Source: Mycoemilia scoparia (taxonomy: Eukaryota; Kickxellomycota; Kickxellomycetes; Kickxellales; Kickxellaceae). From it: DNA of 56,225 nucleotides. The position numbers and the translations under genes are program-made. Where the stretch lies: NCBI GenBank assembly GCA_027575805.1, contig JANBPU010000104.1, positions 1 to 56,225 on the forward strand, read 5' to 3'. The number at the start of each line of letters is the position of its first letter. Position 1 is the first letter of the stretch. The notes under the pieces are model-generated. The model saw only the letters and a program-made list of their open reading frames with translations, was not told the DNA's origin and made no database searches. This document shows, in pieces, positions 2,143 to 42,647 of the stretch.

Positions 2143-4657
2143 TTATTGGATTCCAAGCGTATTCAAGGCATATTTAACCTTGGGCACAGTCCCAATAATA
2201 TCTTTGAGTTTATCAAGGATAACACTGCCTTTGTCATTGTTATCATCGTCATTATCATCTTCAGATGAGCAGACAGTTTTTTTGGACAAAGAAAGGATGT
2301 CCTTACATATCAGGGCATTCATTGAGAAGTCATCTTCAAAAATATGAGGAAGATAGGCTTGAGTTAGACTGTAGCCAATGACCCTTTGGATTACTTCTTG
2401 ATACAAGAGATTTTGTTGGTCGTTGTAAAGATTCGAGAACAATCCGGCTATTTCATTAACTGACAAGTCGTAGAAATCTGGTAAGAGCTTAGAAATTCTT
2501 TCATCGAGCAGGGGGACCTGAGATCCAAGTCGGCTACCATGTAGTTCCAAACCAATAATACAAAATGGAGTATTGATACGCAACTCCTTTGCAATATCAA
2601 TTTGAAGTCCTTTTACGAGATCACTGGCAAGAGATTCAGGCATATGTTCCGAAGTTTCAGGATTCTTAAATCCACGCGTCATAACATCCTTGTTTAGGAT
2701 GATGGCTTCAAACATATGTTTTGGGACCAAGTTGAGATCGGTCAGCGTCTGTGGGCCTGAAGTCAAACTATACTTGGAATCAGAAAGAATGGTTGCCAAA
2801 GCTACTCCATATGTACCAGCCAGCCAAAAGGCATCCTGGTGAGTAATGTGGAGGTAATTTTCTTTGATAGAAGGAAAGCTTGCTCTCACAATTACAATGG
2901 GATGGCAGCGTACAACCCCTCCCTCTGGCCCCAGAGCTATTTCTCTAGTGATTCGGACTGGCACACAAGTAATTTCAGGTTTCTTACCTTGGCGCTCTAG
3001 CAGATCTAGTACAATTTCACCCAATAATTCCCCAGAATTCTTATCATTAAAATAAACCGTTGGATGGTTATTGATGAATGAAAATGAATCGTTGTCTTCT
3101 TCCTCTTCACCGTCATGTTCTCCTGGCTCTTCATAAGTAACTTTATAATTGGTATTTTCAAATACCATGTTGCACAAGTTGATAACCTGGTCGGCTGTTA
3201 TGTATTCAGACGAATCGTTGGCCTTGGCAACATAAGCTTCTCTCATTTTTTGGAGTCTCTCCTTGAATTCGTCAGAAGCCAGAGGCTGGAATTGTTGAAC
3301 CTTTTCCTTGCACTCGGACTATTTATGTTATTTTCAATTAAAGCAATACAAATAAATCCATGCAGATATATATATATATATTATTAGTATGGAGTCAAAG
3401 AGTTTCTCAAATAAAATGCAATGTTGATAAGTCTATTGCTACTTGCCTCTTTCTCATCATCGAGATTAACTTTGAGCTCATGATAAAAGCGTGACAGACC
3501 CTCATGGAATTGGTTCAACATCTAAAGCAAGGAAATAATACGACGTTTTAGCAAGCATTTTTCTTGTCTGTATGTTGATACAATACTTGATTTCTTTTTA
3601 TTTTCTTACAGTGCTGATTACATGGTGGTCCTTGTAAACCTCTCGGTGTGATGTTGTATAGATAGCGCTTGAGTTGTTAGAAATGCACTAAGATCATTTA
3701 CAATTAGAAAATGATAATTAAAATTATAGATGCTATCTACAAGACATTTGCAGTATGATGCATTAAGTATAATATGACTACTTACTTTGACTCTCCCATT
3801 TCGATTTTCAGCAAAGCTTTGCAAAGTGACAGAGCATTTATGAACAAATCTTTTCAAGTCCGATTTTGACATATTCTCCAAAGATGTGCAAATATGCTCT
3901 CCATTACCACCACTACTGCCTGAAATAGCAGAAGAGGAGATGAAACCCCCCTGAAGCCGAGGATACAAAGCATGATACAGCATTTGTTGCTGCTCGTTTG
4001 CTTTCACAGTGTATTCTATGAGCTGAGGCAGAATTCTGGTGTTTGGAGTATATCCTTGTCCACTTTCTTGTTCAAGTTTAGCATAAAAAGAAGTAACATT
4101 GCCACTTCTTTCGTACTGGTCAAAGAAGTGTCTGAACACAGCAATGAGCTCCTTATCGTCACCCAAATCTCTGTGCTCATATGCCATAACGAATTCGAAA
4201 ATGTTAGGTTCCTTCTTAGCAAAATGCTATAAGAAACAAAAACAAACATCAGCTAGAAAAACTACCCAGCACTGTTGCAAGCATGTCAATGTTTATATCT
4301 TGGTTTCCAGTCCAAGGCAGTTATACTTACATCAACGACATCTCTAAGAGAATATACAAACTCTAACAAGTCCCCTCCATCTCCACATGAATTTTCATAG
4401 ACAGAGATAAGGTTACCAATGTCACTAATCAGAGATTTTGCAGTGACAAAGGGCTTGAAGTAGTTTTCCATGTTTTGTTTCTCCACTGGAATCATTATCA
4501 TTTTCTCATACAAAGCCTCAGCATGCTGACAAATCTTGGACAAGTATCCCAGCACTTCTTCAGGACTCTTGAGATCCTCGAATGAAGTACTGGCAATCTC
4601 ATCCCAGTCAAATTGCTTGGTTTCAATATAGTCCTGGCCGTGACTTAGCTCCTGCAT
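2143..4657 (-). CDS. M3-family metallopeptidase homologue lacking the zinc site (pseudopeptidase 1)
   Basis: Five exons: 4657-4331, 4226-3786, 3687-3610, 3521-3447 and 3318-2143. The sum is 2097 nt, 698 residues, the usual size for oligopeptidase/mitochondrial intermediate peptidase relatives. The C-terminal exon follows the M3 layout: a GEIVLDLLERQGKK segment (family: G-x-fylDlxxRxGK), a conserved pre-helix stretch, then the active-site helix. In active enzymes this helix reads TLFHEFGHALH; here it reads WLAGTYGVALA. The three zinc-ligand positions and the general base are G475, V479, L504 and T476, so the protein should not bind catalytic zinc. The 29-residue spacing to the third-ligand position is kept. 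Intron 4 has a GC donor (GAG/GCAAGT). Insertions include an acidic loop (HDGEEEEDND) and a C-terminal Asp/Asn-rich loop. A paralogue with similar exon structure lies at 13196-15756. The fold assignment is strong by motif order; the function is unknown. Confidence 0.75.
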
Positions 4658-5067
4658 TTTCTTTCGTTGTGTTTTTCGTTTTTTGTAGCGATAGAAAATA
4701 GTTCAAAAATAGGTAAAAGCAATGAAAAGGGGGGAATAGCCAGAAGCATGGCCACACAACTGTGTTTATATAGAGATTTATGGAGCAAAAAGGCTAGACT
4801 TGGTTGGGTGAAACATGGTGAGTAAGCACAAGTATGACTGTTTTTACAATGTTAGCCAGAGTAAATCCATGGGAGAAAATTTCTTTGGGTACAAATATTG
4901 ACAAAGAATCTGATGTGGTTTTTAACCAGCATAAAATCATAAAATTCAGAACATTTATTGTAACCAAAATTTTGAAAATCAAGCCTTGAATGTTGATAAA
5001 AGGTTACGATTATAGCTCAACCTATGCGAGGAAAAGTGGGGGGGGAATTTTGTAAAATGCCAAGATG
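4658..5067. other. Upstream region of pseudopeptidase 1
   Basis: No convincing gene. Short open frames here are not supported by codon bias or similarity. A G-run lies at 5039-5045, just before the first MITE copy of this spacer. Confidence 0.45.
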
Positions 5068-5163
5068 TGGGTAGTTATTTTTGAAGGGTTAGCCACCCAT
5101 TTGGCTGGGATTGCCCCTATAATCTTTGGCCTCCAAAATTTACCCTTCAAAAATTATGATCCA
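5068..5163 (-). mobile_element. MITE-like element, copy B
   Basis: Ends GGGTAGTTATTTTTGAAGGG and CCCTTCAAAAATTATGATCCA are inverted relatives. The core is in reverse orientation (CCATTTGGCTGGGATTGCCCC). It is slightly shorter than the consensus. Confidence 0.8.
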
Positions 5164-5244
5164 TATAAACAATTATTACAATAATTGAAATACTTTTATG
5201 TATTTCTCTAAACAATATTGACACCATTTGGAAAGATTTCACTA

Positions 5245-5316
5245 GTGATCAAATCTCTATGGTAGGCAGAAATGGGTCCTCATCAGATTTTGCCCAAAGC
5301 CTTGTGAATTTTCACC
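5245..5316 (+). repeat. Repeat family 3, copy a (internally deleted)
   Basis: Contains ATGGTAGGCAGAAATGGGTC followed by AAAGCCTTGTGAATTTTCACC. Related to 5458-5570 and, inverted, to about 12560-12690. The middle of the longer copy is missing. It directly abuts MITE copy C. Confidence 0.5.
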
Positions 5317-5319
5317 ATT

Positions 5320-5430
5320 TGAGCAATAATTTTTGAAGGGTAAATTTTCGTGAACAATAGTTATAGGGGTAATCACGGCCAAATGGATGTCCAGCTTTAC
5401 TAGTAAATGTTCACCCTTCAAAAATAAAGC
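5320..5430 (+). mobile_element. MITE-like element, copy C
   Basis: AATAATTTTTGAAGGGTAAA at the left, GTTCACCCTTCAAAAATAAA at the right, with the forward core GGTAATCACGGCCAAATGGA between them. Confidence 0.8.
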
Positions 5431-5457
5431 AAAATAAATGGTGAAATCTAAGTTTGA

Positions 5458-5570
5458 ATCAAATACATGGTAGTCGGAAATGGATCTTCAAATTTTGAAC
5501 CAATCATCAACCATTTTAAATGCAACTCTTGGTGCCATTTTTACCTAAAGCATTGCGAGCTTTTTCCATA
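5458..5570 (+). repeat. Repeat family 3, copy b
   Basis: Begins TCAAATACATGGTAGTCGGAAATGG and ends AAAGCATTGCGAGCTTTTTCC. This is the longer version of copy a, and it ends immediately before MITE copy D. Confidence 0.5.
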
Positions 5571-5572
5571 AG

Positions 5573-5689
5573 AGTGATTATTTTTGAAGTGTGAATATTT
5601 ACTAGTAAAACTGGGCACCCATTTGGCTGTGATTGCTGTCCCTATAATCATTGTTCACCAAAATATATGCCTTCAAAAACTATTGCCCA
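5573..5689 (-). mobile_element. MITE-like element, copy D
   Basis: Left end GTGATTATTTTTGAAGTGTG, right end GCCTTCAAAAACTATTGCCCA, reverse-oriented core CATTTGGCTGTGATTGC. Nearly full length. Confidence 0.8.
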
Positions 5690-6271
5690 TATAATAGTCA
5701 AGTTTCAATTATTATTTAACAAACTTGGTATTTTACTGAATCCACCAAAGAGCCAAATTATGATAATTGATATACCACACACATCATTTCAATGATACCC
5801 TTTTCTCATCTTTTTTAAAACAATAGAAATATGAAACTTTTTTATAATAGCAAAGAATACTTTTGCAAAGTACAATACGTAAATAGTTTGATTGGCGACA
5901 TGTAAGTAATAAAAATAGTAATAATGATAAAAAGGAAAGCTAGACTAGAAGTAGTAATAGTTTCAGACGTGGGGGTATATAAATTTTAGAAGAGATGTAG
6001 GTAATAGTAAGTGTAGTTATTGACTATTTAGTATGATTTGTGATACTATACATGTATAATATGATTATAGTATCCGTGAGAAAAATATCGAGATAGAGGG
6101 AAGGCAGTTGAAGAGTCTATCTCAAAGTAATGAGGAAAATCGCATCATTACTGCTAAAATTAGCCAGCAGTTATGAGCTAGCTGGAGTGTTACAGTAGGC
6201 GAGGAAATATTGTTTGGTTGTTCTTGTGGGTTGGGCTGAGTATGAAAATATGTGCGGGTTTTGAGTTTAAC
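5690..6271. other. Downstream region of the PP2A gene
   Basis: AT-rich spacer after the PP2A stop codon, which is read on the minus strand. No gene or repeat was recognised beyond the MITE copies before it. It probably includes the PP2A 3' UTR. Confidence 0.4.
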
Positions 6272-7465
6272 TTAGAGGAAATAGTCTGGTGTTCTACGTG
6301 TAACATGAGGCTCTCCTCTTCTTGGAGCAGGATCGAATTGCAAGAAAGTATACTTCATATTTTCGTCTATTTCCATGATGGCAGCCTGGTTGCCACAACG
6401 GTAGCAGTAGTTTGGTGCACTGAAGATTGTGACGGCCTTCTTTTCGTGACTCCAGTTATAGCCCTCCATGACAAGTTGATGGGCTCTGGCAATCAAGTCC
6501 AAGCCGTTGGTGTGATTGAAGGACGTTGAGATATCTTGCCCAAAGGTATAGCCAGCACCACGTGGAGAAATACCCCAGCCGCATCTGTCATCGGGATCTG
6601 ACCACAAAAGGTCGCACATGGGACCTTCATGGGGAACCTCTTGGACTCTGTCCAGGGCTCTGATATGGTCAAGAGTGTCGATAGATGGAGACAAGCCGCC
6701 GTGGAGGCAGAAGATCCTATTTTCAATAAGCGCAGTCAAAGGCAGATAATCAAACAAGTCGGTGAAGTGCTTCCAGACTTCGGCGTTTCCATATTTTCTC
6801 AAGCACTCGTCGTAGAAGCCGTAGACCTGAGTAATCTGTCTAGACTCGTGGTTACCACGCAGGATTGTTATGCGGTCAGGGTATCTGAGCTTCATTACCA
6901 CCAATAGCGACACCGTCTCAACAGAATAATAGCCTCTGTCTACATAGTCGCCCATGAAAAGGTAGTTTGTGTCTGGCGAATTGCCTCCAATCTTGAAAAG
7001 CTCGACCAAATCGTGAAATTGACCGTGAATGTCACCACAAACCGTCACTGGGCTACGTACAGGCTGGACGTTGCTCTCCTGAGAAAGTACTTCCTTTGCC
7101 TAGAGAAACGATGCAAGCAAACAGAAAATATAATAGAAAGACAGGTGATATTATGTTAGTACATCAATTTATGCTTTGAGGCAATAGCAAAGGGAATGGT
7201 CGGTTATGCATAGGCTGGCACGCACGGATGTATAGTGGTGGGCCTGATAAACGAATGCACTTGAACTAAGCCAAATGGCCAAGGTGACACACATCTTGTG
7301 AAATGCACCAAACCACAAGCACATGCCAATTCGACTCACCTTTGCACAAATCTGTTTGACGTTCTCTTCTGACAACTGTTTGCATTCTTGAAGCTGGGCA
7401 ATCCATTCATCAAGGTGGTTTATGGAAATGTTAATTTGGGATGAAGAGCCGTTATCAATATCCAT
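6272..7465 (-). CDS. Serine/threonine protein phosphatase 2A catalytic subunit
   Basis: Two exons, 7465-7340 and 7099-6272, giving 317 residues, close to the 309 of typical PP2A catalytic subunits. The metal-binding and catalytic motifs are intact and in order: GDIHGQ, GDYVDRG, RGNHESR, LHGGLSP and [11 protein letters not shown]. The C-terminus TPDYFL is the PP2A hallmark whose last Leu is carboxymethylated and whose Tyr is a phosphorylation site. This distinguishes it from PP4 and PP6. The enzyme dephosphorylates phospho-Ser/Thr in holoenzymes with scaffold A and regulatory B subunits, acting in cytosol and nucleus. The intron of about 240 bp falls at VKQICAK/AKEVLSQ. The start ATG is preceded by in-frame non-coding sequence and gives a normal N-terminus. 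Confidence 0.97.
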
Positions 7466-8011
7466 CTTGGTTTGCTATATTAACGATAATAAAGAGCCCC
7501 GTGTTAGTACATTCTTGAAACAAGCTATGCGGCAGTAGTGTGGTTCTGGCACAACACATTGGTGGGGGTTAAACAATGAGAGCAGAGTGCATCTTCAAAG
7601 ACGTCGAGTATACACAAATGCTACCAACATTTATGATAATTCAACAGCAAACACGTACTTATATGTATCTGTGGGTTTGGATATCCGTATGAAGAAGGGT
7701 TAAAAAGAACAAAACACAAAAGAGTAGAAATAAGCCCTTGATAAGAGTAGCAACGGAAATAAAAGGGGACCAAACGAAAAATAGAAAGAAAGCTAGTTTA
7801 TTAATTGGGATTGAAGTCCCAATAAACATCACCAATAACACAACAATCCTGCGTGTGTCCCACAGCTGCTGCTTTTCGCTGACTCACTTTAAGCACTGTT
7901 TTTCTCTCCCCATGGTGGTTGTTATTTATTATTTGTTGTATAGGCAGGCTTTTTTGGGTATTTTGGTCGCAGAGCGCATTATTGCTATTTGGCAGAGCAG
8001 TCTCCTTTAGA
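7466..8011. other. Upstream region of PP2A
   Basis: No gene recognised. The sequence probably holds the PP2A promoter and 5' UTR. There are purine-rich and pyrimidine-rich stretches but no clear TATA box tied to a start. Confidence 0.4.
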
Positions 8012-8165
8012 AGGATACTAGGATATTCCCTTTGATACTAGCCAATCATCACTAAGACACCAGCTAAAATTTATGGGTCATGGACTAGCTTTGCAGGGAA
8101 TATGTGAGGGTATCTGCTTGTTCCCTTTTGGCGGAGGACTTGTCATATGCATTGGGAGCCAGGGC
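8012..8165 (+). repeat. Repeat family 2, copy a
   Basis: Contains GATACTAGCCAATCATCACT, CACCAGCTAAAATTTATGGG, TTTGCAGGGAATATGTG and TTCCCTTTTGGCGGAGGACTTG. The same blocks in the same order occur at 54817-54940, inverted at 33441-33575, and partly (inverted) at 39478-39535. No obvious long terminal inverted repeat and no coding capacity. Confidence 0.65.
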
Positions 8166-9389
8166 ACCACTTGAACGTTTTGTTTTAACCAGCTAATCTC
8201 ATATCCTTCCCACCTTTGTCTTGTATTTTTGTCATGCAGCTGCGCATATACCTCGGGCTTGCCTCACCTTGCCTTCTACCCCAGCTTTTTTGGCCTTTAT
8301 TCGCTTTACTGCATGTATATATTTCCCATGTGGGCTTTCCTACAACGACAATACAATATTACCAAGTCCGAGAATGAAACATTTTTCTTCTACTGTTGCT
8401 TTCCAAGTAAGCCCTTGCTTTATTCTCTTCTAGAACTGTTTGGTTTCTTCTTGGTGGTAATAGTAGTAGTTTTGACTGTTTGCCAGCTATACTCCTTAGC
8501 TGCGTCTGTGTGTGTAATTTGGGCGTAATAGCTTTCCCTAAAGTGTTTTTTTGTTTGGATAAAGATTCTCATCAAAGAGCGAATAAAGGTCCTGGAAACC
8601 AATGTATGTATTATGCATAATAACAGCATATCATTGGCCAGAGCATTCAATCGCTGTTATCCCATCTATGCGTTTCATATAGTTTAATTTTGGTGACCTT
8701 CAACAAAAAAGAGGGGCTCTCTTTTGGTGGTTGTTACTTTCCCAACAAAGATACAATCACAACCACTCGGAGTTTCTAAAATTCAAATTCCCAATGAAAT
8801 TAATACTATTCTGATTTGATCTGATTCCTTTGTTTTGTTTTGTTTTCATGCTATTCATGACAAGTTTGAAAAAAGTCTTGGTGATAATAAACAAAAGGCT
8901 ATCCCTGCCCCCACAAGATATGACACTATTAGCAAATGTAATATGGCGGGCTTCACAAGAAGCTAAAGTTGATAAAGCCAAATCTTGGTAATAATAGCGA
9001 GCAACCAAAGACTAATTATGAGGATCATTGAAATTAAATTGAGTGCTTTGCTAGGAAATGAATTGGTCAGAAATGTCTCTTCCTGTGCTTTATCCTAATC
9101 ACTCACATCTGTTTGAATGAGAGTGAATTAGTAAATAATGAAACGATTGCGATGTTGGTTTATTTACCATAGTTTTTTGTTTACTTTTTTATTCTCACCC
9201 TCTCTATTTTATTTTTTCCAGTAATCATATTAAACCTTATACTTCTTTTTACAATACACCGCGCACGCTCTGTTCCCCTTTGTTTCACTCCCCATATCCT
9301 ACCTTGCCCATCTCTTCTCTAACACAACAGCAAAGAACCATAAACTTTGTGTCGAAACCAAGAAGCCCCAACGAATAGTTTGATAAACC
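8166..9389. other. Intergenic region upstream of MCM2
   Basis: A spacer of about 1.2 kb without a supportable gene. Open frames at 8221-8650 have no recognisable domain and overlap one another on both strands. The last 200 bases are pyrimidine-rich (about 9180-9320), consistent with a promoter/5' UTR for MCM2. A single-base MluI-type cell-cycle box was not seen. Confidence 0.4.
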
Positions 9390-12386
9390 ATGAGCAACAA
9401 TAACAGAAATAATAAGCGTAGAGCAAACGCCATATCTGATTCAGAGGACTCAGATAACATGGTGACCTTCCCAGCCACACCAGGTGGTGGTATGGCATAC
9501 GGTTCTAGCTCGCCAGAAACTGGTCCAACAAGAGACTTGCCACCATCGTCTCCACCACCAGCCAGTCTGTCTCTACCTTTTGGTCAAGGCGGATTTATCA
9601 ACAATAATGGCGATGATGATATGGAGAGTGACAGCGAGGCCCGTAGAATGCTACAAGCCCAATTTGAACAGGAAGAAAGAGAACTTAGACTAGCTCAGCA
9701 AGAGGAAGATGAGTTGGAAGAAGAAGGCGAAAGGTTAGCTATCGAAGGCGATGATGATGATGATGAAGGTGAGGATCTTTTTGGTCCTAGTATGGAACTG
9801 GATTACATGGTTAATCCCGAAAAGGATGTCTACGATATTGAGGAGATTGATGACGCTGAGTACGAGAAAATGGATCCTGCTACCAGAGCCAAAGTTGAGG
9901 CACGTTTGAGAAGGCGTGATGCTGAACAGGGTTTGCTTAGCGGGGCAAAATCACGCATCCCAGCAGCATTTCTTCAAGGCTTTGAAGACGATGAAGACGA
10001 TGAGGACAATGGTGGCAGAGGAGGCCATTCTCGCAGATATCGTAGAAGAGCTGATAGGGACAACATTCACGCTGCTCTATTTGACCAGAGCATGGATGTT
10101 CAGGATGAAGAGCGTGAAATGACCCTTAATGAGCTCAAGGACATGAAGGGAAAATCGGTGGCAAGCTGGATTAACGAGCCTGGCCCTCGTCAGACCATTA
10201 CCCGTGAATTCCGCCACTTTCTATTGTCTTATGTAGATGATCAGGGTGCATCCGTCTATGGCGAACGCATCAGAAAGCTCGGTGAAAGCAATGGTGAGAG
10301 TCTTGAGGTCAGCTATGCCCACTTGGCTACATCCAGACCGTTGCTGGCCTACTTTTTGGCTAATGCTCCAAAAGCCATGTTGGCAATTATGGATGATGTC
10401 GCCATGGACGCTGTCTTGACTGTATTTCCCGACTATGCCCGCATTCGTCCCGAAATTCACATCCGTATCGCGGACCTTCCAACAATGTGCTCCCTTCGTG
10501 AACTTAGACAGTCTCAGCTCAACTGCTTGGTTAGAGTACACGGCGTAGTCAGCAGACGTACAAGTGTATTCCCTCAGCTCAAATATGTGAAGTTCAATTG
10601 CCAAAAGTGTGGTGCTGTCTTGGGTCCATTCTATCAGGATAGTCAAAGCGAAATCAAGATTGGCATGTGTACCAATTGCCAGAGCCGTGGCCCATTTACT
10701 GTTGACTCCGAGCAAACTGTTTACCGTAACTACCAGAAAATTACCTTGCAGGAAACCCCTGGATCTGTGCCTGCGGGTCGCCTGCCCAGACATCGTGAGG
10801 TTGTCCTTCTTTGGGATCTTATTGACTGTGCTAAGCCTGGTGATGAGATTGAAGTCACTGGTGTATATGGCCATACCTATGATGTATCTCTCAATACAAA
10901 GCAAGGATTCCCAGTATTTGCCACTGTCATCGAAGCAAATCATGTCAGAAGAAGAGCCGATGAGTTTGCAGCCTTCCGTTTGACTGAGGAGGACCGCCGT
11001 GCAATTCGTGCCTTGGCCAGAGATAAGGGAATTGGGCGTCGCATCATCAAATCAATTGCTCCATCCATCTATGGCCACGACCATATAAAGACCGGTGTAG
11101 CTCTGAGTTTGTTTGGTGGTGTTGCCAAAGACCTCAACGGCAAGGCCAGAACCAGGGGAGATATCAATGTGCTGCTACTTGGTGACCCTGGTACGGCAAA
11201 GTCCCAGATCCTTAAATATATCGAAACCACTGCCCACAGAGCAGTATTCACTACTGGCCAAGGTGCTAGTGCAGTAGGTCTTACTGCCAGTGTTCGCAAG
11301 GACCCAGTTACCCGGGAATGGACGCTTGAGGGTGGTGCCCTTGTGCTTGCTGATCGCGGTGTATGTCTTATTGATGAGTTTGACAAGATGAATGATACTG
11401 ATCGTACTTCTATCCACGAGGCCATGGAGCAGCAGACCATCTCGCTTTCAAAGGCTGGCATTGTTACTACTCTTCAGGCCCGCTGTGCTGTTATTGCAGC
11501 TGCCAATCCAATTGGTGGCCGCTACAGACCCACTCTTCCTTTTTCTCAGAATGTCGAGCTCACTGAGCCTATCCTTTCTCGCTTCGACGTGTTGTGTGTT
11601 GTTCGTGATGAAGTTGACCCAGTTCGTGACGAACATCTTGGCAAATTTGTGGTGCAAAGTCACATTCGATCACACCCTCGTTTCCAGAGCGACACAGCTG
11701 ATGTCCAAATGGCAGATGAGGCTACTATTGGCGATGTACCTACCGGAACCGCTAGTGCTACCGCTCTTGGTGATTCCGACATCATTCCTCAAGACCTCTT
11801 GCGCAAGTACATTATGTATGCCCGTGAAAACATCACCCCTAGAATGCACCAGGTTGATCAAGACAAGATCATGAACCTCTATGCTGAACTTCGTCGTGAG
11901 TCTCTGGCTACTGGAAGTATTCCCATCACAGTGCGTCATGTAGAATCAATTATTCGACTATGCGAAGCGCATGCGCGCCTGCACCTTCGTGAATATGTGC
12001 GCTCTGATGATGTTGAAGTAGCCATCCGTGTAGTTCTTGAGTCGTTCATTTCTGCCCAAAAGATATCTGTCAAGAAATCCTTGCGTCGGGTATTCTCCAA
12101 GTACCTTACGGCCAAGAGAGATATATTCGAAGTTTTGCACTTTGTTTTGTCGAGATTGATTCAAGACAAGTTGACATTCTATCAATATTCTCATCGTGGC
12201 CAACTCCCATCCAATGTTCGCATTTCTAAGGAAGAGTTCGAGTCCCAAGCTAGGTCAATGCAGATTCACGACTGTGCACCATTCTATCAATCTCGGATGT
12301 TTGTATCTCAAGGGTTTGAGTTTGACGGGGAAGGAACTCATATTGTAAAATCCTTTGCTACTTCTTCGTCAACCGCAACTGCTTGA
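9390..12386 (+). CDS. MCM2: DNA replication licensing factor MCM2
   Basis: A single exon of 998 residues. The N-terminal 250 residues are acidic and Ser/Pro-rich, as in MCM2, where this region binds histone H3-H4 and is phosphorylated by DDK. A C4 zinc finger (CQKC...CTNC) spans about residues 404-433. Walker A GDPGTAKSQ is at about 598-606, Walker B CLIDEFDKM at about 659-667, and the arginine finger SRFD at about 729-732. The motif GGRYRPTLPFSQNVELTEPILSRFD runs through the MCM box. The product is one of six subunits of the MCM2-7 replicative helicase, loaded at origins in G1 and active in S phase in the nucleus. The Met at 9390 is chosen because the sequence before it is pyrimidine-rich UTR and the acidic N-terminus follows directly. 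Confidence 0.97.
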   Translation: MSNNNRNNKRRANAISDSEDSDNMVTFPATPGGGMAYGSSSPETGPTRDLPPSSPPPASLSLPFGQGGFINNNGDDDMESDSEARRMLQAQFEQEERELRLAQQEEDELEEEGERLAIEGDDDDDEGEDLFGPSMELDYMVNPEKDVYDIEEIDDAEYEKMDPATRAKVEARLRRRDAEQGLLSGAKSRIPAAFLQGFEDDEDDEDNGGRGGHSRRYRRRADRDNIHAALFDQSMDVQDEEREMTLNELKDMKGKSVASWINEPGPRQTITREFRHFLLSYVDDQGASVYGERIRKLGESNGESLEVSYAHLATSRPLLAYFLANAPKAMLAIMDDVAMDAVLTVFPDYARIRPEIHIRIADLPTMCSLRELRQSQLNCLVRVHGVVSRRTSVFPQLKYVKFNCQKCGAVLGPFYQDSQSEIKIGMCTNCQSRGPFTVDSEQTVYRNYQKITLQETPGSVPAGRLPRHREVVLLWDLIDCAKPGDEIEVTGVYGHTYDVSLNTKQGFPVFATVIEANHVRRRADEFAAFRLTEEDRRAIRALARDKGIGRRIIKSIAPSIYGHDHIKTGVALSLFGGVAKDLNGKARTRGDINVLLLGDPGTAKSQILKYIETTAHRAVFTTGQGASAVGLTASVRKDPVTREWTLEGGALVLADRGVCLIDEFDKMNDTDRTSIHEAMEQQTISLSKAGIVTTLQARCAVIAAANPIGGRYRPTLPFSQNVELTEPILSRFDVLCVVRDEVDPVRDEHLGKFVVQSHIRSHPRFQSDTADVQMADEATIGDVPTGTASATALGDSDIIPQDLLRKYIMYARENITPRMHQVDQDKIMNLYAELRRESLATGSIPITVRHVESIIRLCEAHARLHLREYVRSDDVEVAIRVVLESFISAQKISVKKSLRRVFSKYLTAKRDIFEVLHFVLSRLIQDKLTFYQYSHRGQLPSNVRISKEEFESQARSMQIHDCAPFYQSRMFVSQGFEFDGEGTHIVKSFATSSSTATA

Positions 12387-12530
12387 TGATAGCTACAGAG
12401 ATAACTCAATTAACAATCATTCAATTTCTTAATTTCCTTTCTTTTATTAGTAAATACTATCATTGAGCTTTTGTCTAACTAAAACCTTTCTTCTTTTCTA
12501 TAACATTATTGAAATTTAAAATTATAATCA

Positions 12531-12563
<33 letters not shown>

Positions 12564-13195
12564 GGTCAGAATTCACAAAGCCTTGGTCGAAATTGGATCC
12601 CCAGGAGTAGTTACATACGAACTGGCTCATGAGTGATCCAAAATATTAAGACTCATTTCTGACTACCACACAATCGATCACAAGTAACATAATTTTTCAT
12701 AAAATATATTTGAAATATAAAAAAAGAAAGCATAGTGAAGGCCCCCAACCTTCGGATATATAATAAAAAATCAAAAAAAATCTTGGGCATACAAATGAAC
12801 GAGTGTAAAAGTATTTGTGTGTGTGTGTGATACTGCTTTGTGTGTAACTATATAGAAAAAGAAAGGCATAAAACACGATTCAACCCCTTTATTAATTTGG
12901 TATATAAAAGGATGGAAGTTGTCAGATGTTATGGATAGATTTGTTTTTGAATGGAATGTTATATTGGAACTGTAGTTTTTTCTCGGATTTTTATGATGTT
13001 TGAATGGAGGGAAAAAGTATATACACATATTTATGCGGGTGTTGATGAAAGTATGTATATACTTGGATTGTCGAATTTAGAGTGTGTCTTAAATGAGTGT
13101 CAATTTTAATGAGTGTGATTTAATGAGTGTGTCTTGAATGAATGAATGGGTTAGATTTGTTTTTGAGAGTTTTTGTTTTTGGTTTTTGTAGTCAT
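12387..13195. other. Convergent 3' region between MCM2 and pseudopeptidase 2
   Basis: MCM2 (plus) and the second M3-like gene (minus) end towards each other here. The spacer contains an (AAT)n microsatellite at about 12530-12562, a short GT run near 12817, and an inverted family-3 repeat at about 12560-12690. No gene seen. Confidence 0.5.
12560..12690 (-). repeat. Repeat family 3, copy c
   Basis: The reverse complement contains TGTGGTAGTCAGAAATGAGTC and AAGGCTTTGTGAATTCTGACC, matching blocks of 5245-5316 and 5458-5570 in the same order. Confidence 0.45.
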
Positions 13196-15756
13196 TTATT
13201 GACCGAGGGCTTGGAAGAATCCAGCAGTCAAGTCGCGTCTTCCAATGGAGTTTTTAACCTTAGTGAGAATGTTTTGATCAGCGGCATTCATGGGAAAGAT
13301 ATTCTCAATCAATTCGGTGATAACATTAGGGTCGTCCTTGATATAGCGACCCTTGAGACTCACAGCAAGGTTGTAGCCATAGGTTCTTTCGGTGATCTCG
13401 GTGTAAAGCATGTTGTTCTCATCGTAGAAAAGTGCCACAAGATCACTGGTGAGCTGTGGCCAGCTTCGAATGAAGTCATTAAAGTTCCTGTGGAATTCAA
13501 GATCCAAGCTGATATACATATGACGGTCGAAATACTGCTCCCGGCCACTTCCAACAGCTGTCAATGAATGACGAAGAAGTGAAAGGTCGCAATAATGACT
13601 AAGCTGACCAATCAATGAGATACGATAGGTTCTGACCAATTCATCGAGATGATGTCTTGGAGCTGGCTGACCATTAAGTGAGAGATCTCCGTCGCTGAAT
13701 ATCATGGCTAAGATGGTCTCATCAAACATAAGAGCTTCAAATGTATGCTTGAGTACTTGCGAAAAGTCAATTAGACTGTCGGGCCCAGTAGTTGCACGGA
13801 ATTTGCCTTTGGACAAAAGGTCGCCAAAGGCCAAACCAAGTTGACCGGCAAGTGTTACAGCTTGAACAAAATGTATAGGGTTAACCATTCTTCCTCTTTC
13901 TGTTTCAAACTTGCCAAAGTTAGCCTTGAGAATTACTACAGGCTTGGCTGTTCGACCTTCAGCTGTGAGATGTCCTCGTCTGACAGGGAGTCTTTCAACT
14001 TCAGCCGTCTTTCCATCACGACGTGTAAAGTCAATGTGGATCTCTCCAACTATTTCGTTGGTAGAACGGCAGATGAACTTGTAGATTTTCACATCGCTAT
14101 CCCATGTAGGACTCTCATCAGTCGCAAGCTGGAAAAAGTAATTCGAATGCTTGAATAAACCGAAAAAGAAGTTCAATACTGCATCTGCAGTCATATATTC
14201 CGGAGAATACTGGTCAGCTTGGTTGAGCTCGGATATGTTTTTGGTATAGAAGTCATCAACTTCAAGAGAAAAGATATTGTCAATGCTCAAGTCAGTACCT
14301 TGGAATTGTTGCTAAAAATAAAAAATGACAATACAGGTTAGTTCGTGAAAAACATATATATATATATATTTGAAAGCGAACGTAAATATATCAAAGGTCT
14401 GTGCTCATTAAAATTTAAAGATTCACTTACTTGTCTCTTGAACAAGATACCATTCTTGATATCCCTTTTTATTCTGTCAAAGACAGATTTGGTTTTTTCA
14501 AGAATCTAAAAGATATAAAATAACAACATGTTATTTCATATGATGCACAATTATAACAACTTCCAAAAAATTAGGACTGCATACATACCTCCAATACGTG
14601 CCATGGGTCATTTTGAACACGTAGCTCATAGTCATAGCTTTGTTTGGAGGGGTATCCAAGAATCTAACAAAGAACAATATGTGAATATTAGCATTATACT
14701 TCATCATATCAATAATAGTTTAGCAATCAATGCATATGGAGCATAATTTTTGAAGGGTGAATTTTGGTGACCAACAATTATAGGCGCAATCACAGCCAAA
14801 TGAATGGCCACCATTTACTATCAAATGGTTGCCCTTCAAAAATAACTACCCATATCACTAATAGGTTTACTTACCTTGACCATCTCGATTTTATGACGAA
14901 CATACTCCTTGAGGCATGTCAACATTTCAAAGTATGCTTTCATGTATTCCCTGAAAACATCATTGAGGATATCGACACCAAGGTTTCTAGAATGACACCA
15001 AATATCAAAAGCATCTCGGGGAAAGATCAAAGTGAACTCTTGTCCATACTCTTCAACCTTTGGGTTTTCAGTAAAGGGGTTGTTGCTTCCAAGGATTTCA
15101 AGTGAGCTGCTCAAAACCTTTGCAGGATACTCAGTTCCGTTGAGTAGATGTCTGAATCTACTCTCATTTCTTGAACAAATAGCAAGGTGGCTTTGGAATT
15201 GCTCATAATCCTCGCCTTGGAGATAGCTCCCGCCTTCAGTAACCTGACGGTGGCTGAGCATGAAGACACGCTTTCCTTCAGGATCATTGATCAGGAACCC
15301 GTTCGTTCTGTCCGAAACAAATCTGTTATACTGATCACTTGCAACACTAAAATCACCGCCAAACATGGCATTCTATATCGAGGGATATTTCCACAAATAA
15401 ATAACATTTTTAGCCATTTACTTTTTATTCTGCAACAGCAAGCTTTAGATTAATGTTTTCCTTACCAAGTAAACTCTGCCTGTCCTTTCAACGACATCAT
15501 CAATTGCGGGAGATCTTTCAAGTGCCTTGAAGGCATTTAAAAGATCTTTGACAGATTCAATGTTGTCAAATGCCACAGTGGATTTGCCAAGGTAGTTAGG
15601 AAAGTCTCTTGACTCTGCGGGCACAGCTCTAGCTCTCTTCAAGACCTCAACAGCCTTGCTGATATAGCCACTGGTTTGACTTTCTTGCAATTCTGCAAAT
15701 GAAAAGCCGATAGTGGTAACACGGTCGGCTTGGTTGGGGTAAGGGTTAAAAGACAT
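13196..15756 (-). CDS. M3-family metallopeptidase homologue lacking the zinc site (pseudopeptidase 2)
   Basis: Five exons: 15756-15466, 15372-14875, 14663-14589, 14505-14431 and 14311-13196. The sum is 2055 nt, 684 residues. M3 features in order: an N-terminal helical region (VAFDNIESVKDLLNAF), the RHKIEMVKILGYPSKQSY motif (family: R-x2-A-x-LLGYxSYA), GEIHIDFTRRDGK, and the active-site helix. The helix reads TLAGQLGLAFG instead of TLFHEFGHALH. Zinc-ligand positions are G469, L473 and Q498 (in DFSQ) and the catalytic Glu position is Q470. Their spacing equals that of true enzymes, so only the chemistry is lost. No mitochondrial presequence is evident. Intron 2 holds MITE copy E. Exons 3 and 4 are both 75 nt, resembling the 78/75-nt pair in the paralogue at 2143-4657. 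A scaffold, chaperone or regulatory role is possible but unproven. Confidence 0.82.
14737..14852 (+). mobile_element. MITE-like element, copy E (intronic)
   Basis: Full-length copy inside intron 2 of pseudopeptidase 2. Left end GGAGCATAATTTTTGAAGGG, right end CCCTTCAAAAATAACTACCCA, flanked by TA on both sides. The core GCAATCACAGCCAAATGAATG is in forward orientation. Confidence 0.88.
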
Positions 15757-16356: not shown

Positions 16357-16471
16357 TGGATCATAATTTTTGAAGGGTGAATTTTTGTGACCAGTGATTA
16401 TAGGGACAATCACAGCCAAATGAATGTCCAGTTTTACTAGTGAACTTTCACCCTTCAAAAATTATTACCCA
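16357..16471 (+). mobile_element. MITE-like element, copy F
   Basis: Full-length copy. Left TGGATCATAATTTTTGAAGG, right CCCTTCAAAAATTATTACCCA, flanked by AA on both sides. It lies about 140 bases downstream of the WW-FF gene stop. Confidence 0.9.
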
Positions 16472-18683: not shown

Positions 18684-19618
18684 ATGACAAACCCTCAAGT
18701 AGGCATAGGTAATTAGAGGCATTTGATGCAGATTATTTAAAATGCTTTGGATAGTTTTATTTACTAAACTATACCTTTTTAATTCTTATAGACTCTAACC
18801 AAAGTCAAAACAGCATGATGCTACTAGAGCAGATCCTTGATAATTTTGATAATTACAGAAGCTGTGCTGGGATAATAAGTGGGTCGGACCTCATGAGTCT
18901 CAGAGACAACTCTCTCGCAGTTCAGGCGGCCCAACAAGTCGTTATGCAAGCTCATCCAGACAATTATATTAAAAAGTACATGAGCGTTGAATTGACTAGC
19001 TGTAATCTAGCTTTTGCAAGCAGGATTGTTCAAACTCCTAATACCAGCGCTGACACTGCTATTCCCAGTGGAACCATAGAAAATAGATGTAGTAACAGTC
19101 ATAGTTATGACCATACTCAATTGCCCAATTATCAGTTCCAGACACTAATTGACAAAAGAAAGGGTCAGAGGAAGGTGCTCAAATCAAAAACTATATCTTT
19201 AATCATTGAGCTGTTGCACAATGCATATAACAGACAAATGTCTTCACCATACTCACAGTCGCTGGGATCAGTAACAACACCAGAAGAAGTATCTGTTATA
19301 GGTGTAGGACCTATTCATCCCAATCTTCTTAAAAAGTTTTTACAGCCATTGTTTTGCTGCCCTTCATATGAAATAATAGAACAGCATCTAAAATGTGCAA
19401 TGTCTGAAAAAGACTGTAAGCATCAAGAGTGCGCTACAAGGATAACTTCAGTTTCTATCTCTCTACATTCCAAGATGTATGTTACACTTGATATCTATAG
19501 TCAATGTTATATAGAAACACCAGACCCGAGTTTGCACTATGCTTCTCTTTGCTTCAATTACAATGATCCAGGATTTCCAAAACACAAGTTTGATAAAGCT
19601 ATAGGCTTTGTCATGTAA
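18684..19618 (+). CDS. Hypothetical protein, 283 residues (orphan)
   Basis: Two exons, 18684-18708 and 18792-19618. The first encodes only MTNPQVGI plus one base. The intron GTAATT...TTATAG restores frame to DSNQSQNSMMLLEQILDNF. I recognise no family. The C-terminal half has a Cys/His cluster (CCPSYEIIEQHLKC...CKHQEC, about residues 208-235) that could bind a metal, followed by alternating hydrophobic residues (SVSISLHSKMYVTLDIYSQCYIE) suggestive of beta strands. No signal peptide or membrane segment. The start is chosen because the upstream exon gives a good ATG context (ACGCAATG) and a clean junction. A start at the internal Met pair in exon 2 is possible. Confidence 0.6.
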
Positions 19619-22680: not shown

Positions 22681-22863
22681 TTCATTACCAGCCAATATCA
22701 TGGTTTTTAAACGAAATTTATGGACTTTAACATAAATTCATGTTCCAAGAATATAATTATTTATATAAGAAATTGAAAACGTAAATAATATTAAAATTGG
22801 TTATAAATGTATGTTAAAGTCCATAAATTTCGTTTAAAAACCATGATATTGGCTGGTAATGAA
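22681..22863. repeat. 54-bp inverted repeat beside the N gap
   Basis: 22681-22734 is the exact reverse complement of 22810-22863, with a 75-base AT-rich spacer. The right arm contains the last 16-17 codons of the minus-strand orphan gene, so its 3' end exists twice in opposite orientation. A nested shorter palindrome (AAAGTCCATAAATTT at 22668 with AAATTTATGGACTTT) extends to the N run. This could be a real hairpin or an artefact of gap closing. Confidence 0.8.
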
Positions 22864-24331
22864 CAAAGTGATTTGTTTCTTCATTCAGATCAACAAAGTG
22901 CCATATCCACTTTGTAAAATCTGTAATTGAGTTACCAATATTTTGACTTCCACCATCGAGAGCTATAGTGCCTTTCAACATTTGCGACAAAACTCTGGCA
23001 ATGAATTCGGTTATAGTCAGCGCGGCTCTAACAACATTCTTGTTGATATCATAATTCCTTTTCGATGACAATAGATAACACAATTTGTCGACAAATAGAC
23101 CTAACGCTTTTTGATCCTTTATGCAGTTGGTAGCACTTGAGAAAATATCTTCGGTTTTGTCATCAAGATCACCATCGTCATTATTGACGTTAGTGTTGTG
23201 ATTGGCTTTATAGTTACTGATATCCAAAGCCTTAAACCCTGTCTCTTCGTTTTTATACAATGACGCAAATATGTATTGTATATAATACTTGACAAGCACC
23301 CCACAATCTTTCGGGAAATAACGTCCACAATACTTTATAAACGGCTTAGACTTTAGGTTCTGCTCTTGTCTTTGTTTGTTTGATAAGACAAGTAGACTTG
23401 CGAAATTTCTGATTGGCAGTTCAATGTCGTAATCCCAGTAAAATTTAATAGTACTCTGTATTATTTGTATTTTTTTCTTTAATCCATATTCAAATATCGA
23501 TGATGCCGTGCAGGGATATATTTTCGAATAATTACTTTCGTATTCGAAGTTCTTTTCTTGAATAATCGTGCTAAGTTGTGATAGTATATCTTCAATTTCT
23601 TTGATACCATATCCAAATATTTTGTTATTGTTGTTTGGAGGGCTCGAATGGCAATGGGTTTCTGGATTGTAGAGGCTGTAGATTTGTTGTTGTTGTTGTT
23701 GTTGTTGTTGCAGTCTTGGTAGGTTATGATTAAATTGTGTGTTGTATGGTAATATGCCGAATTGATCTTGTGGAATAAATGTATTGTAATTTGGCTGCGA
23801 TAACATCTGATTGGTATTTTGGATATTTGGAGGCAATACCTTGGTGTATTGACTTAGTAATATCCTGTTTCCTATATTTTGGCGATTGTAATTCCCGTTG
23901 GATAAAGGCAGTGTGGCATAGGGATTAGCCAGATTGATATTGTATATAAGCTCAGATGGAAGCTGATCTAGCGTATAACTCTGGTTGAAAATATATCCAA
24001 ATACTTCTTCTAAGGTGGTGATTGTTATACCATTCATGTTTGGATATTGTAAGCCTTGTTGTTGTCTATAACTATTTTTATTAACAAGGGCATAATGCCA
24101 TGGAAATTTAAGGTTGATAAATTCCTTAAATGTAGGGCTAGCCAGTTTTGGAATTATGCCACTATTTAGATTGCCATCATCGAACAACTGTTGTAGAAAG
24201 TTCAATGTTTTTAAAAGGTCTTGTTCTCTTTTAAAATATTCAGTTGATCTGTTAAGAATGGTTTCTGCAACATTATTAATAACCGGATCAAAACAACACT
24301 CTTTGGTACACGGCTGATGTTCACGATCCAT
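22814..24331 (-). CDS. Hypothetical poly-Q protein, 505 residues (orphan)
   Basis: A long single open frame. I recognise no domain. The N-terminus is Cys-rich (PCTKECCFDP), the middle is Asn/Gln/Tyr-rich and low-complexity with a run of nine Gln near residue 209 (encoded by a TTG-type repeat on the plus strand). The C-terminal 250 residues look globular and helical (IEDILSQLSTIIQEKN, FGLFVDKLCYLL-like, VRAALTITEFIARVLSQML). No signal peptide. The gene converges on PI synthase, and its last codons overlap an inverted repeat next to an assembly gap, so the C-terminus is uncertain. Length and the absence of stops argue for a real, possibly lineage-specific, gene. Confidence 0.6.
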   Translation of the reverse strand: MDREHQPCTKECCFDPVINNVAETILNRSTEYFKREQDLLKTLNFLQQLFDDGNLNSGIIPKLASPTFKEFINLKFPWHYALVNKNSYRQQQGLQYPNMNGITITTLEEVFGYIFNQSYTLDQLPSELIYNINLANPYATLPLSNGNYNRQNIGNRILLSQYTKVLPPNIQNTNQMLSQPNYNTFIPQDQFGILPYNTQFNHNLPRLQQQQQQQQQIYSLYNPETHCHSSPPNNNNKIFGYGIKEIEDILSQLSTIIQEKNFEYESNYSKIYPCTASSIFEYGLKKKIQIIQSTIKFYWDYDIELPIRNFASLLVLSNKQRQEQNLKSKPFIKYCGRYFPKDCGVLVKYYIQYIFASLYKNEETGFKALDISNYKANHNTNVNNDDGDLDDKTEDIFSSATNCIKDQKALGLFVDKLCYLLSSKRNYDINKNVVRAALTITEFIARVLSQMLKGTIALDGGSQNIGNSITDFTKWIWHFVDLNEETNHFVHYQPISWFLNEIYGL

Positions 24332-30756: not shown

Positions 30757-30871
30757 TGGATCATAATTTTTGAAGGGTGAAAGTTCACTAGTAAAACTGG
30801 ACATCCATTTAGCTGTGATTTCCCCTATAATCAGTGGTCACCAAAATTCACCCTTCGAAAATTATTGCCCA
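30757..30871 (-). mobile_element. MITE-like element, copy H
   Basis: Left TGGATCATAATTTTTGAAGG, right CCCTTCGAAAATTATTGCCCA, reverse-oriented core CCATTTAGCTGTGATTTCCCC. Flanked by TT on both sides. Lies between the convergent RPC2 and epimerase genes. Confidence 0.9.
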
Positions 30872-32975: not shown

Positions 32976-33093
32976 AATTGCGACCATACAAACGAGAAAA
33001 TGTCGGTTCCCGTCCGATCACCGTAACCAAGCTCGTTATGGCCAGGAGAGTACTACTGTGGGGGACCAAGTGGGAACACCTGGTGTTGCAATT
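32976..33093 (+). rRNA. 5S ribosomal RNA
   Basis: About 118 nt. Recognised by GCGACCATAC near the 5' end, TCGGTTCCCGTCCGATCACCG in the middle, GGCCAGGAGAGTACTACTGTG and GGGAACACCTGGTGTTGCAATT at the 3' end. The terminal stem pairs AATTGCGAC with GTTGCAATT. The T-rich stretch directly after (CTTTTTT) is a Pol III terminator. The internal A-box region reads AACCAAGCTCG rather than the usual AGTTAAGCAG-like sequence, so this could be a divergent or decaying copy. It stands alone, as dispersed 5S genes do in many fungi. Confidence 0.88.
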
Positions 33094-33419
33094 TCTTTTT
33101 TCAACTTTTTCTTTACTTTTTTATTAAAACTAATGTGAAAACCCAGGTCTAGAAAATATTGCTGATCCAGCTGACGATTCAAATAACGCTGTAAGCACCA
33201 CCAGAACTGCGATTTAAACTAAAGCCACACACCATTATCCTTATTTTTTTTTGGGTCATCTTTATTTCCAAAATCAGTGCTTTGTTTGCAGTGCATGTGT
33301 CCAATGATAAATAAGAATTCAGAGACAGGCGATGACAATTTCAAATAGAGCTTCGCTTTAGCTTTTGAAAGCCTCGCTGTCTGATTTACTGGGTTTATTA
33401 TAGCTAGCAAGTGCCTGTA

Positions 33420-42576: not shown

Positions 42577-42647
42577 TGCATCGGCCAGGAATCGAACCCG
42601 GGTCTGCCGCGTGGCAGGCGGCAATTATACCACTAAACCACCGATGC
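42577..42647 (-). tRNA. tRNA-Gly (anticodon GCC)
   Basis: 71 nt on the minus strand. GCATCGG pairs with CCGATGC in the acceptor stem. The D arm has GGTTTAGTGGTA, the anticodon loop is CTGCCAC with GCC, and the T arm is CCCGGGTTCGATTCCTGG. Both Pol III boxes are present, and a run of six T follows on the transcribed strand. Confidence 0.97.

Follow-up and report, generated by a model that had tools for sequence, protein, structure and literature searches.

Putative pseudopeptidases derived from peptidase family M3 in the fungus Mycoemilia scoparia

Why would a genome keep long, uninterrupted genes for a peptidase whose zinc site has gone? The question is raised by contig C7 of Mycoemilia scoparia (order Kickxellales; genome of 21.16 Mb in 466 contigs), a stretch of 56,225 bases that was analysed whole and is called the window here. 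Two genes on its minus strand, gene A (2143..4657, 698 residues) and gene B (13196..15756, 684 residues), encode homologues of a peptidase whose catalytic residues have been lost. We read them as functional pseudopeptidases that derive from a thimet-oligopeptidase-like peptidase of family M3 and are kept for a non-catalytic job, and we put the probability of this reading at roughly 0.6.

The former zinc site of genes A and B

None of the three zinc ligands is preserved in either protein, nor is the catalytic Glu: these positions are taken by G475, T476, V479 and L504 in A and by G469, Q470, L473 and Q498 in B, and the counterpart of the HExxH motif reads GTYGV in A and GQLGL in B. The 29-residue spacing to the third-ligand position is retained in both proteins, and the same spacing separates H467 from E496 in C63, an intact homologue encoded elsewhere in the genome. 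The dead helix of A and B is firm; the function of the proteins is not. H600, Y609 and Y612 of thimet oligopeptidase are residues that stabilise the substrate. Their columns hold N, L and E in A and A, L and E in B, in a stretch where identity to C63 is only 2/37 to 3/37 and where one Tyr is kept beside the three columns, such that a one-column shift would alter the reading of these positions. On this weak alignment, the substrate-stabilising His and Tyr positions look replaced in both proteins.

Both proteins score above the Pfam Peptidase_M3 cut-off of 27 bits, A with 33.3 bits (expectation value, E, 4.6e-8) and B with 47.3 bits (E 2.6e-12). When each was searched as a single sequence against solved structures, 7/7 matches at E up to 1 were to neurolysin and thimet oligopeptidase, the best at 3.0e-4 for A and 1.1e-6 for B, and the alignment of B with thimet oligopeptidase covers B residues 246-541, including the active-site helix. 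Likewise, a four-row profile of A, B and two related genes of this genome, C22 and C185 (676 and 682 residues, helix GTLGL, 38-39% identical to A), found these same two peptidases in all seven of its solved-structure matches at E up to 10, the best at 3.1e-6. A profile-profile comparison of these four sequences with C63 and two further genes, C427 and C259, gave an E of 9.9e-11 over 228 columns; the controls gave 0.34 for the reversed profile and 0.024 for the best of 60 shuffles. The match of A and B to M3 spans the catalytic half, and the N-terminal third lies outside it.

Each gene is supported by a five-exon spliced model, by Pfam and by a deposited protein. The exons of A are 4657-4331, 4226-3786, 3687-3610, 3521-3447 and 3318-2143, and those of B are 15756-15466, 15372-14875, 14663-14589, 14505-14431 and 14311-13196. 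All eight introns, four in each gene, are in phase 0, and seven have GT-AG borders, the fourth intron of A being GC-AG. Neither spliced model contains an internal stop. The deposited protein P0001 (H4219_003803) is B, with 684 residues and 100% identity. The deposited form of A (P0002, H4219_003800) has 690 residues and differs from our 698-residue model at one donor site, which it places 24 nucleotides upstream of the GC-AG border (window 3470-3319), so that eight residues are absent from it; in the 698-residue model the border of the fourth intron shares its alignment column with the borders of C22 and C185. Thus the original prediction of two full-length, M3-related proteins free of stop codons, with the replaced residues and the spacing given above, was borne out by the Pfam scores, the spliced models, the deposited B protein and the comparison with C63. 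Visual inspection showed no signal peptide in either A or B, suggesting that both proteins are cytosolic.

The segment that once held the active site comprises residues 464-515 of A (LAGTYGVALA ... KHMFEA; 2695..2850, minus strand, with codons counted from the beginning of its final exon). A and B are identical at 21/52 positions in this segment (40%) versus 33/114 for A residues 330-463, 35/165 for residues 516-698 and 48/286 for residues 1-329 (17-29%), at an overall identity of 24-27%. The corresponding counts for B and C22 are 23/52 in the segment versus 24/110, 28/158 and 45/280 elsewhere. L473, A474, G475, G478, A480, K507, H508, F510 and H567 (A numbering), among others, are invariant in the alignment of A, B, C22 and C185, and the four share a replacement motif, LAGxxGxA...KHxF, where the zinc site used to be. 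That the site of zinc loss is the least-varying part among these genes fits its continued use.

Comparison of A with C22 gave a synonymous divergence (dS) of 0.95, a non-synonymous divergence (dN) of 0.55 and a dN/dS of 0.58 (95% interval 0.45-0.72), and comparison with C185 gave a dN/dS of 0.55 (0.43-0.68). Gene A is under purifying selection and is kept as a protein. By region of A, its dN/dS against C22 is 0.77 (0.54-1.07) for residues 1-329, 0.39 (0.19-0.67) for residues 330-463, 0.36 (0.16-0.72) for residues 464-515 and 0.50 (0.25-0.79) for residues 516-698. Between A and B dS is 4.2 and saturated, and the maintenance of B therefore rests on its intact frame, the shared introns and the conservation of the segment. 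The earlier description of both proteins as maintained pseudopeptidases is thus upheld for A, by dN/dS, frames, introns and segment, and is plausible for B. Our reading is that both genes are probably fast-evolving yet maintained.

M3-derived genes in the rest of the genome

The genome contains two M3 genes in which the HExxH helix is intact and no fewer than 14 M3-derived genes that lack it; the second figure is a minimum, since the search scored the best candidates only. The intact genes are C63 (locus L032; 674 residues, helix HEFGHVMH with the Glu at the right spacing) and C427 (L033; a 925-residue frame with the helix HEMGHAMH). A putatively active HExxH paralogue, which the original prediction had proposed to seek, is thus present twice, and both genes are possible active partners. 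A and B themselves, first taken for a previously undescribed pair, turn out to be two of four genes in their clade and two of the at least 14 without the helix. The others are C22, C185, C259 and a second, more divergent family of nine genes. Pfam fails to recognise C22 as M3. C259 (L034, 1399-3651) is a 750-residue frame, 47% identical to C63, in which the helix reads SSLGH, preserving the second His, and K563 stands at the place of the third ligand. The dN/dS between C63 and C259 is 0.16 (0.10-0.27), at a dS of 2.95 that is near saturation and with 358/500 resamples usable. The N-terminus of C259 looks signal-peptide-like by eye, and this protein is for that reason possibly secreted.

The nine-gene family (loci L036-L043) is both tandem and dispersed, with four genes on C58 (12742-24384), three on C21 and one each on C110 and C449, and was read from last exons, with a full spliced model for C58b alone. 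The helix F[EKQ]xFG[KR]xxYY replaces the M3 zinc helix in 9/9 genes, and by hand alignment the third-ligand Glu may persist in five of the nine. Pfam did not detect M3 in the C58b frame, in the C58b spliced model or in any of the nine last exons, and phmmer linked C58b to none of the seven other M3 proteins. A search of the genome for the M3 family gave 29.9 bits, above the cut-off, for a C58b stretch that has two stop codons inside it. Among the solved structures matched by a nine-row profile at E up to 10, the best ten of 15 were neurolysin, oligopeptidase A and thimet oligopeptidase (best 2.4e-5), and comparison of the nine-gene profile with that of C63, C427 and C259 gave an E of 4.2e-10 over 358 columns (reversed, 0.41; best of 60 shuffles, 0.051). 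The M3 descent of this family appears less direct than that of A and B. A weak match to C96 (E 0.0097), a low-complexity open frame of 621 residues, was not counted, and a search with PF19310 found nothing.

Four introns are common to A, B, C22 and C185, the first at alignment columns 235, 234, 235 and 235, respectively, and the others at columns 488, 516 and 541, whereas C63 is a single open frame. In a tree that carries a long-branch warning, the clade of A, B, C22 and C185 has support of 100/100, as does the nine-gene family, and C259 joins C63 at 93/91, which falls short of the starred level. The profile of the A/B clade did not match that of the nine-gene family (E 0.065; best of 60 shuffles, 0.09). 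Introns of C58b lie near those of A and B (column 234 versus 234/235, and 484 versus 488), and matches to other members of its family break near residues 109 and 233, which together hint at an ancestor common to both families. A single origin of all the dead genes was considered and not adopted. It is likely that the zinc site was lost at least twice, once for C259 and once or twice for the other genes.

C22 and C185 match by blastn over 3.1 kb at 91% identity, and both have intact frames and usable splice sites. The match reaches about 0.5 kb beyond the gene upstream and about 0.2 kb downstream, and haplotype copies were rejected because it stops so close to the gene on both sides. In the introns 412 of 415 aligned bases are identical (3 mismatches), versus 156 mismatches in 2027 exon bases. 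This difference had at first suggested positive selection, an explanation that was dropped at a dN/dS of 0.79 (0.57-1.10). The two genes are near-identical at the ex-active-site segment, and blocks of divergence occur in exon 2 and in the 3' half of exon 5. Synonymous and non-synonymous changes rise together in these blocks, which is better explained by a gene-conversion mosaic, and our reading is that patchy gene conversion has probably left the fast-changing blocks over.

Possible roles of the zinc-less proteins

We propose that a thimet-oligopeptidase-like M3 peptidase was the ancestor and would have lost zinc binding and catalysis. The deep M3 channel may persist, holding peptides or a partner protein without cutting them, with the former zinc helix presumably re-lined with small residues; fast duplication and change outside the core would tune the binding of each copy. 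Peptide or protein binding thus seems the likeliest non-catalytic role of A and B, and peptide binding, chaperoning or regulation of an active relative, the roles first put forward for them, are all conceivable. More tentatively, two families with 13 or more genes between them, each family marked by a replacement motif of its own, might form a lineage-specific set of non-cutting binders, shaped by tandem duplication, dispersal and gene conversion and resembling a recognition repertoire.

A different role, which we consider rather unlikely, is that A, B and their kin regulate the active peptidase C63 by binding the enzyme or its substrates, as dead paralogues from other families of metallopeptidases do. 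C63 lies in the same genome with its HEFGH and its Glu in place, and the abstract of PMC11266112 gives regulation of active cousins as a role of pseudopeptidases. However, the excess of genes that lack the helix (at least 14, against two that have it) and the fast divergence are unlike one-to-one partners. M3 enzymes of the thimet-oligopeptidase type are also usually monomers.

Still less probable is that these genes are decaying duplicates, that is, pseudogenes that have stayed intact by chance so far. The dN/dS of C22 and C185, the failure of Pfam to recognise C22 and the long branches of the tree would all be in keeping with decay, but frames are intact and splice sites usable in A, B, C22 and C185, the dN/dS of A against both C22 and C185 is below 1, and the replacement motif has been kept between A and B despite their low overall identity. 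Furthermore, the 167 coding differences between C22 and C185 include 0 stops, versus a neutral expectation of 5.8 nonsense changes when the observed transition bias is allowed for (P 0.003); leaving that bias out gives 7.6 for the 156 exon differences (P 0.0005), and both expectations treat changes as independent.

We hold it to be about as improbable that the proteins act as peptide-independent scaffolds, with the fold as an interaction surface and the old channel closed. The N-terminal part evolves fastest, as the dN/dS for residues 1-329 of A against C22 indicates, and the substrate-stabilising positions also look replaced on the weak alignment, both of which a scaffold would accommodate; nevertheless, the segment of the former channel is the best conserved rather than the least. 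A recast enzyme with a new metal site or chemistry, for example around K507, H508 and H567 of A, which are invariant in the four-gene alignment, is very improbable, as no known motif was seen there and a set of four sequences that includes two near-copies is too small to pick new catalytic residues.

Several points weigh against the reading of A and B as functional pseudopeptidases, the support for whose function comes from sequence comparison throughout. An AlphaFold structure check, run on two-row alignments (P0001 and P0002), gave unusable models, with a mean predicted local distance difference test score of 34.3 for A and 30.6 for B. The M3 fold of both proteins therefore rests on sequence profiles, and predicted secondary structure was excluded from the evidence. 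The conservation of the segment may be structural only, because this segment is core in active M3 enzymes too, and the regional dN/dS intervals overlap, which makes the stronger constraint at the old site no more than a trend. The dN/dS of C22 and C185 is not separable from 1, nor is that of their divergent blocks (0.87, 0.60-1.26), which were picked after the divergence had been seen. Finally, no relatives of A or B outside M. scoparia were found in the protein-database searches, which scored the best 7997 and 7994 word-sharing candidates, and 1172 candidates for B residues 338-545, and returned only the M. scoparia query protein. The database search that found A missed B, which is in the database and was a query row, as well as C22 and C185; the reach of the search was therefore limited, and the absence of relatives is weak evidence.

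Genomic setting and comparison with known systems

A and B lie about 8.5 kb apart. The gap holds an open frame with a calcineurin-like phosphoesterase domain (6272..7048, minus strand) and the replication licensing factor MCM2 (9390..12386, plus strand), both outside the system described here. A short repeat with inverted ends (AATTTTTGAAGGGTGAATTTT), resembling a miniature inverted-repeat transposable element, has 11 matches in the window at up to 3 mismatches, where 0 are expected. Copies lie at 5328-5426, 16365-16463, 30765-30863 and 14745-14845, among others, and three arm pairs each span 99 bases. The copy at about 14745-14845, its far end placed by eye, enlarges intron 2 of gene B (14664..14874, minus strand) to 211 nucleotides; the corresponding intron measures 98 nucleotides in A and 119 in both C22 and C185. 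The window also carries a 5S ribosomal RNA gene (32976-33094, plus strand), a tRNA-Gly(GCC) gene (42577-42647, minus strand) and two open frames, 18815-19618 (plus strand, 267 residues) and 22814-24331 (minus strand, 505 residues), neither of which has a Pfam match at E up to 0.01.

Many metallopeptidase families are known to include pseudopeptidases. No M3 case was found in the literature searched, where nothing on M3 pseudoenzymes or on peptidases of M. scoparia was seen. The ratio of at least 14 genes to 2, with new motifs at the old zinc site, would make this genome a natural experiment on what an oligopeptidase channel can do without cutting. Automatic names, such as that of the UniRef entry beginning 'Peptidase M3A/M3B catalytic doma', can count dead genes of this kind as enzymes.

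Among active enzymes, A and B are closest to thimet oligopeptidase and neurolysin of subfamily M3A, with which they share the catalytic-half match, the helix region, the total length and the 29-residue spacing, and from which they differ in having neither HExxH nor the third-ligand Glu. PMC7804941 gives the fungal M3A motif as HEXXH + EXXS + H + Y/R + Y and lists four putatively active M3A genes in Aspergillus niger. A and B belong to the same fungal subfamily as that set, but HEXXH and EXXS are absent from them. Among inactive relatives of metallopeptidases, the portions of PMC11266112 examined name ADAM2/11/18/22/23/32, unc-71, gone early, FtsHi1-5 and Ecm14 and place such pseudoenzymes in families M1, M12, M13, M14, M24, M41 and others; in its main text, the terms 'Family M3', 'thimet', 'neurolysin' and 'oligopeptidase' have 0 occurrences. 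Like the pseudoenzymes described there, A and B have changed metal ligands and a changed general base, have kept their homology and have intact relatives in the same genome. Unlike those examples from M1, M12 and other families, they belong to a single genome that holds at least 14 M3-derived cases.

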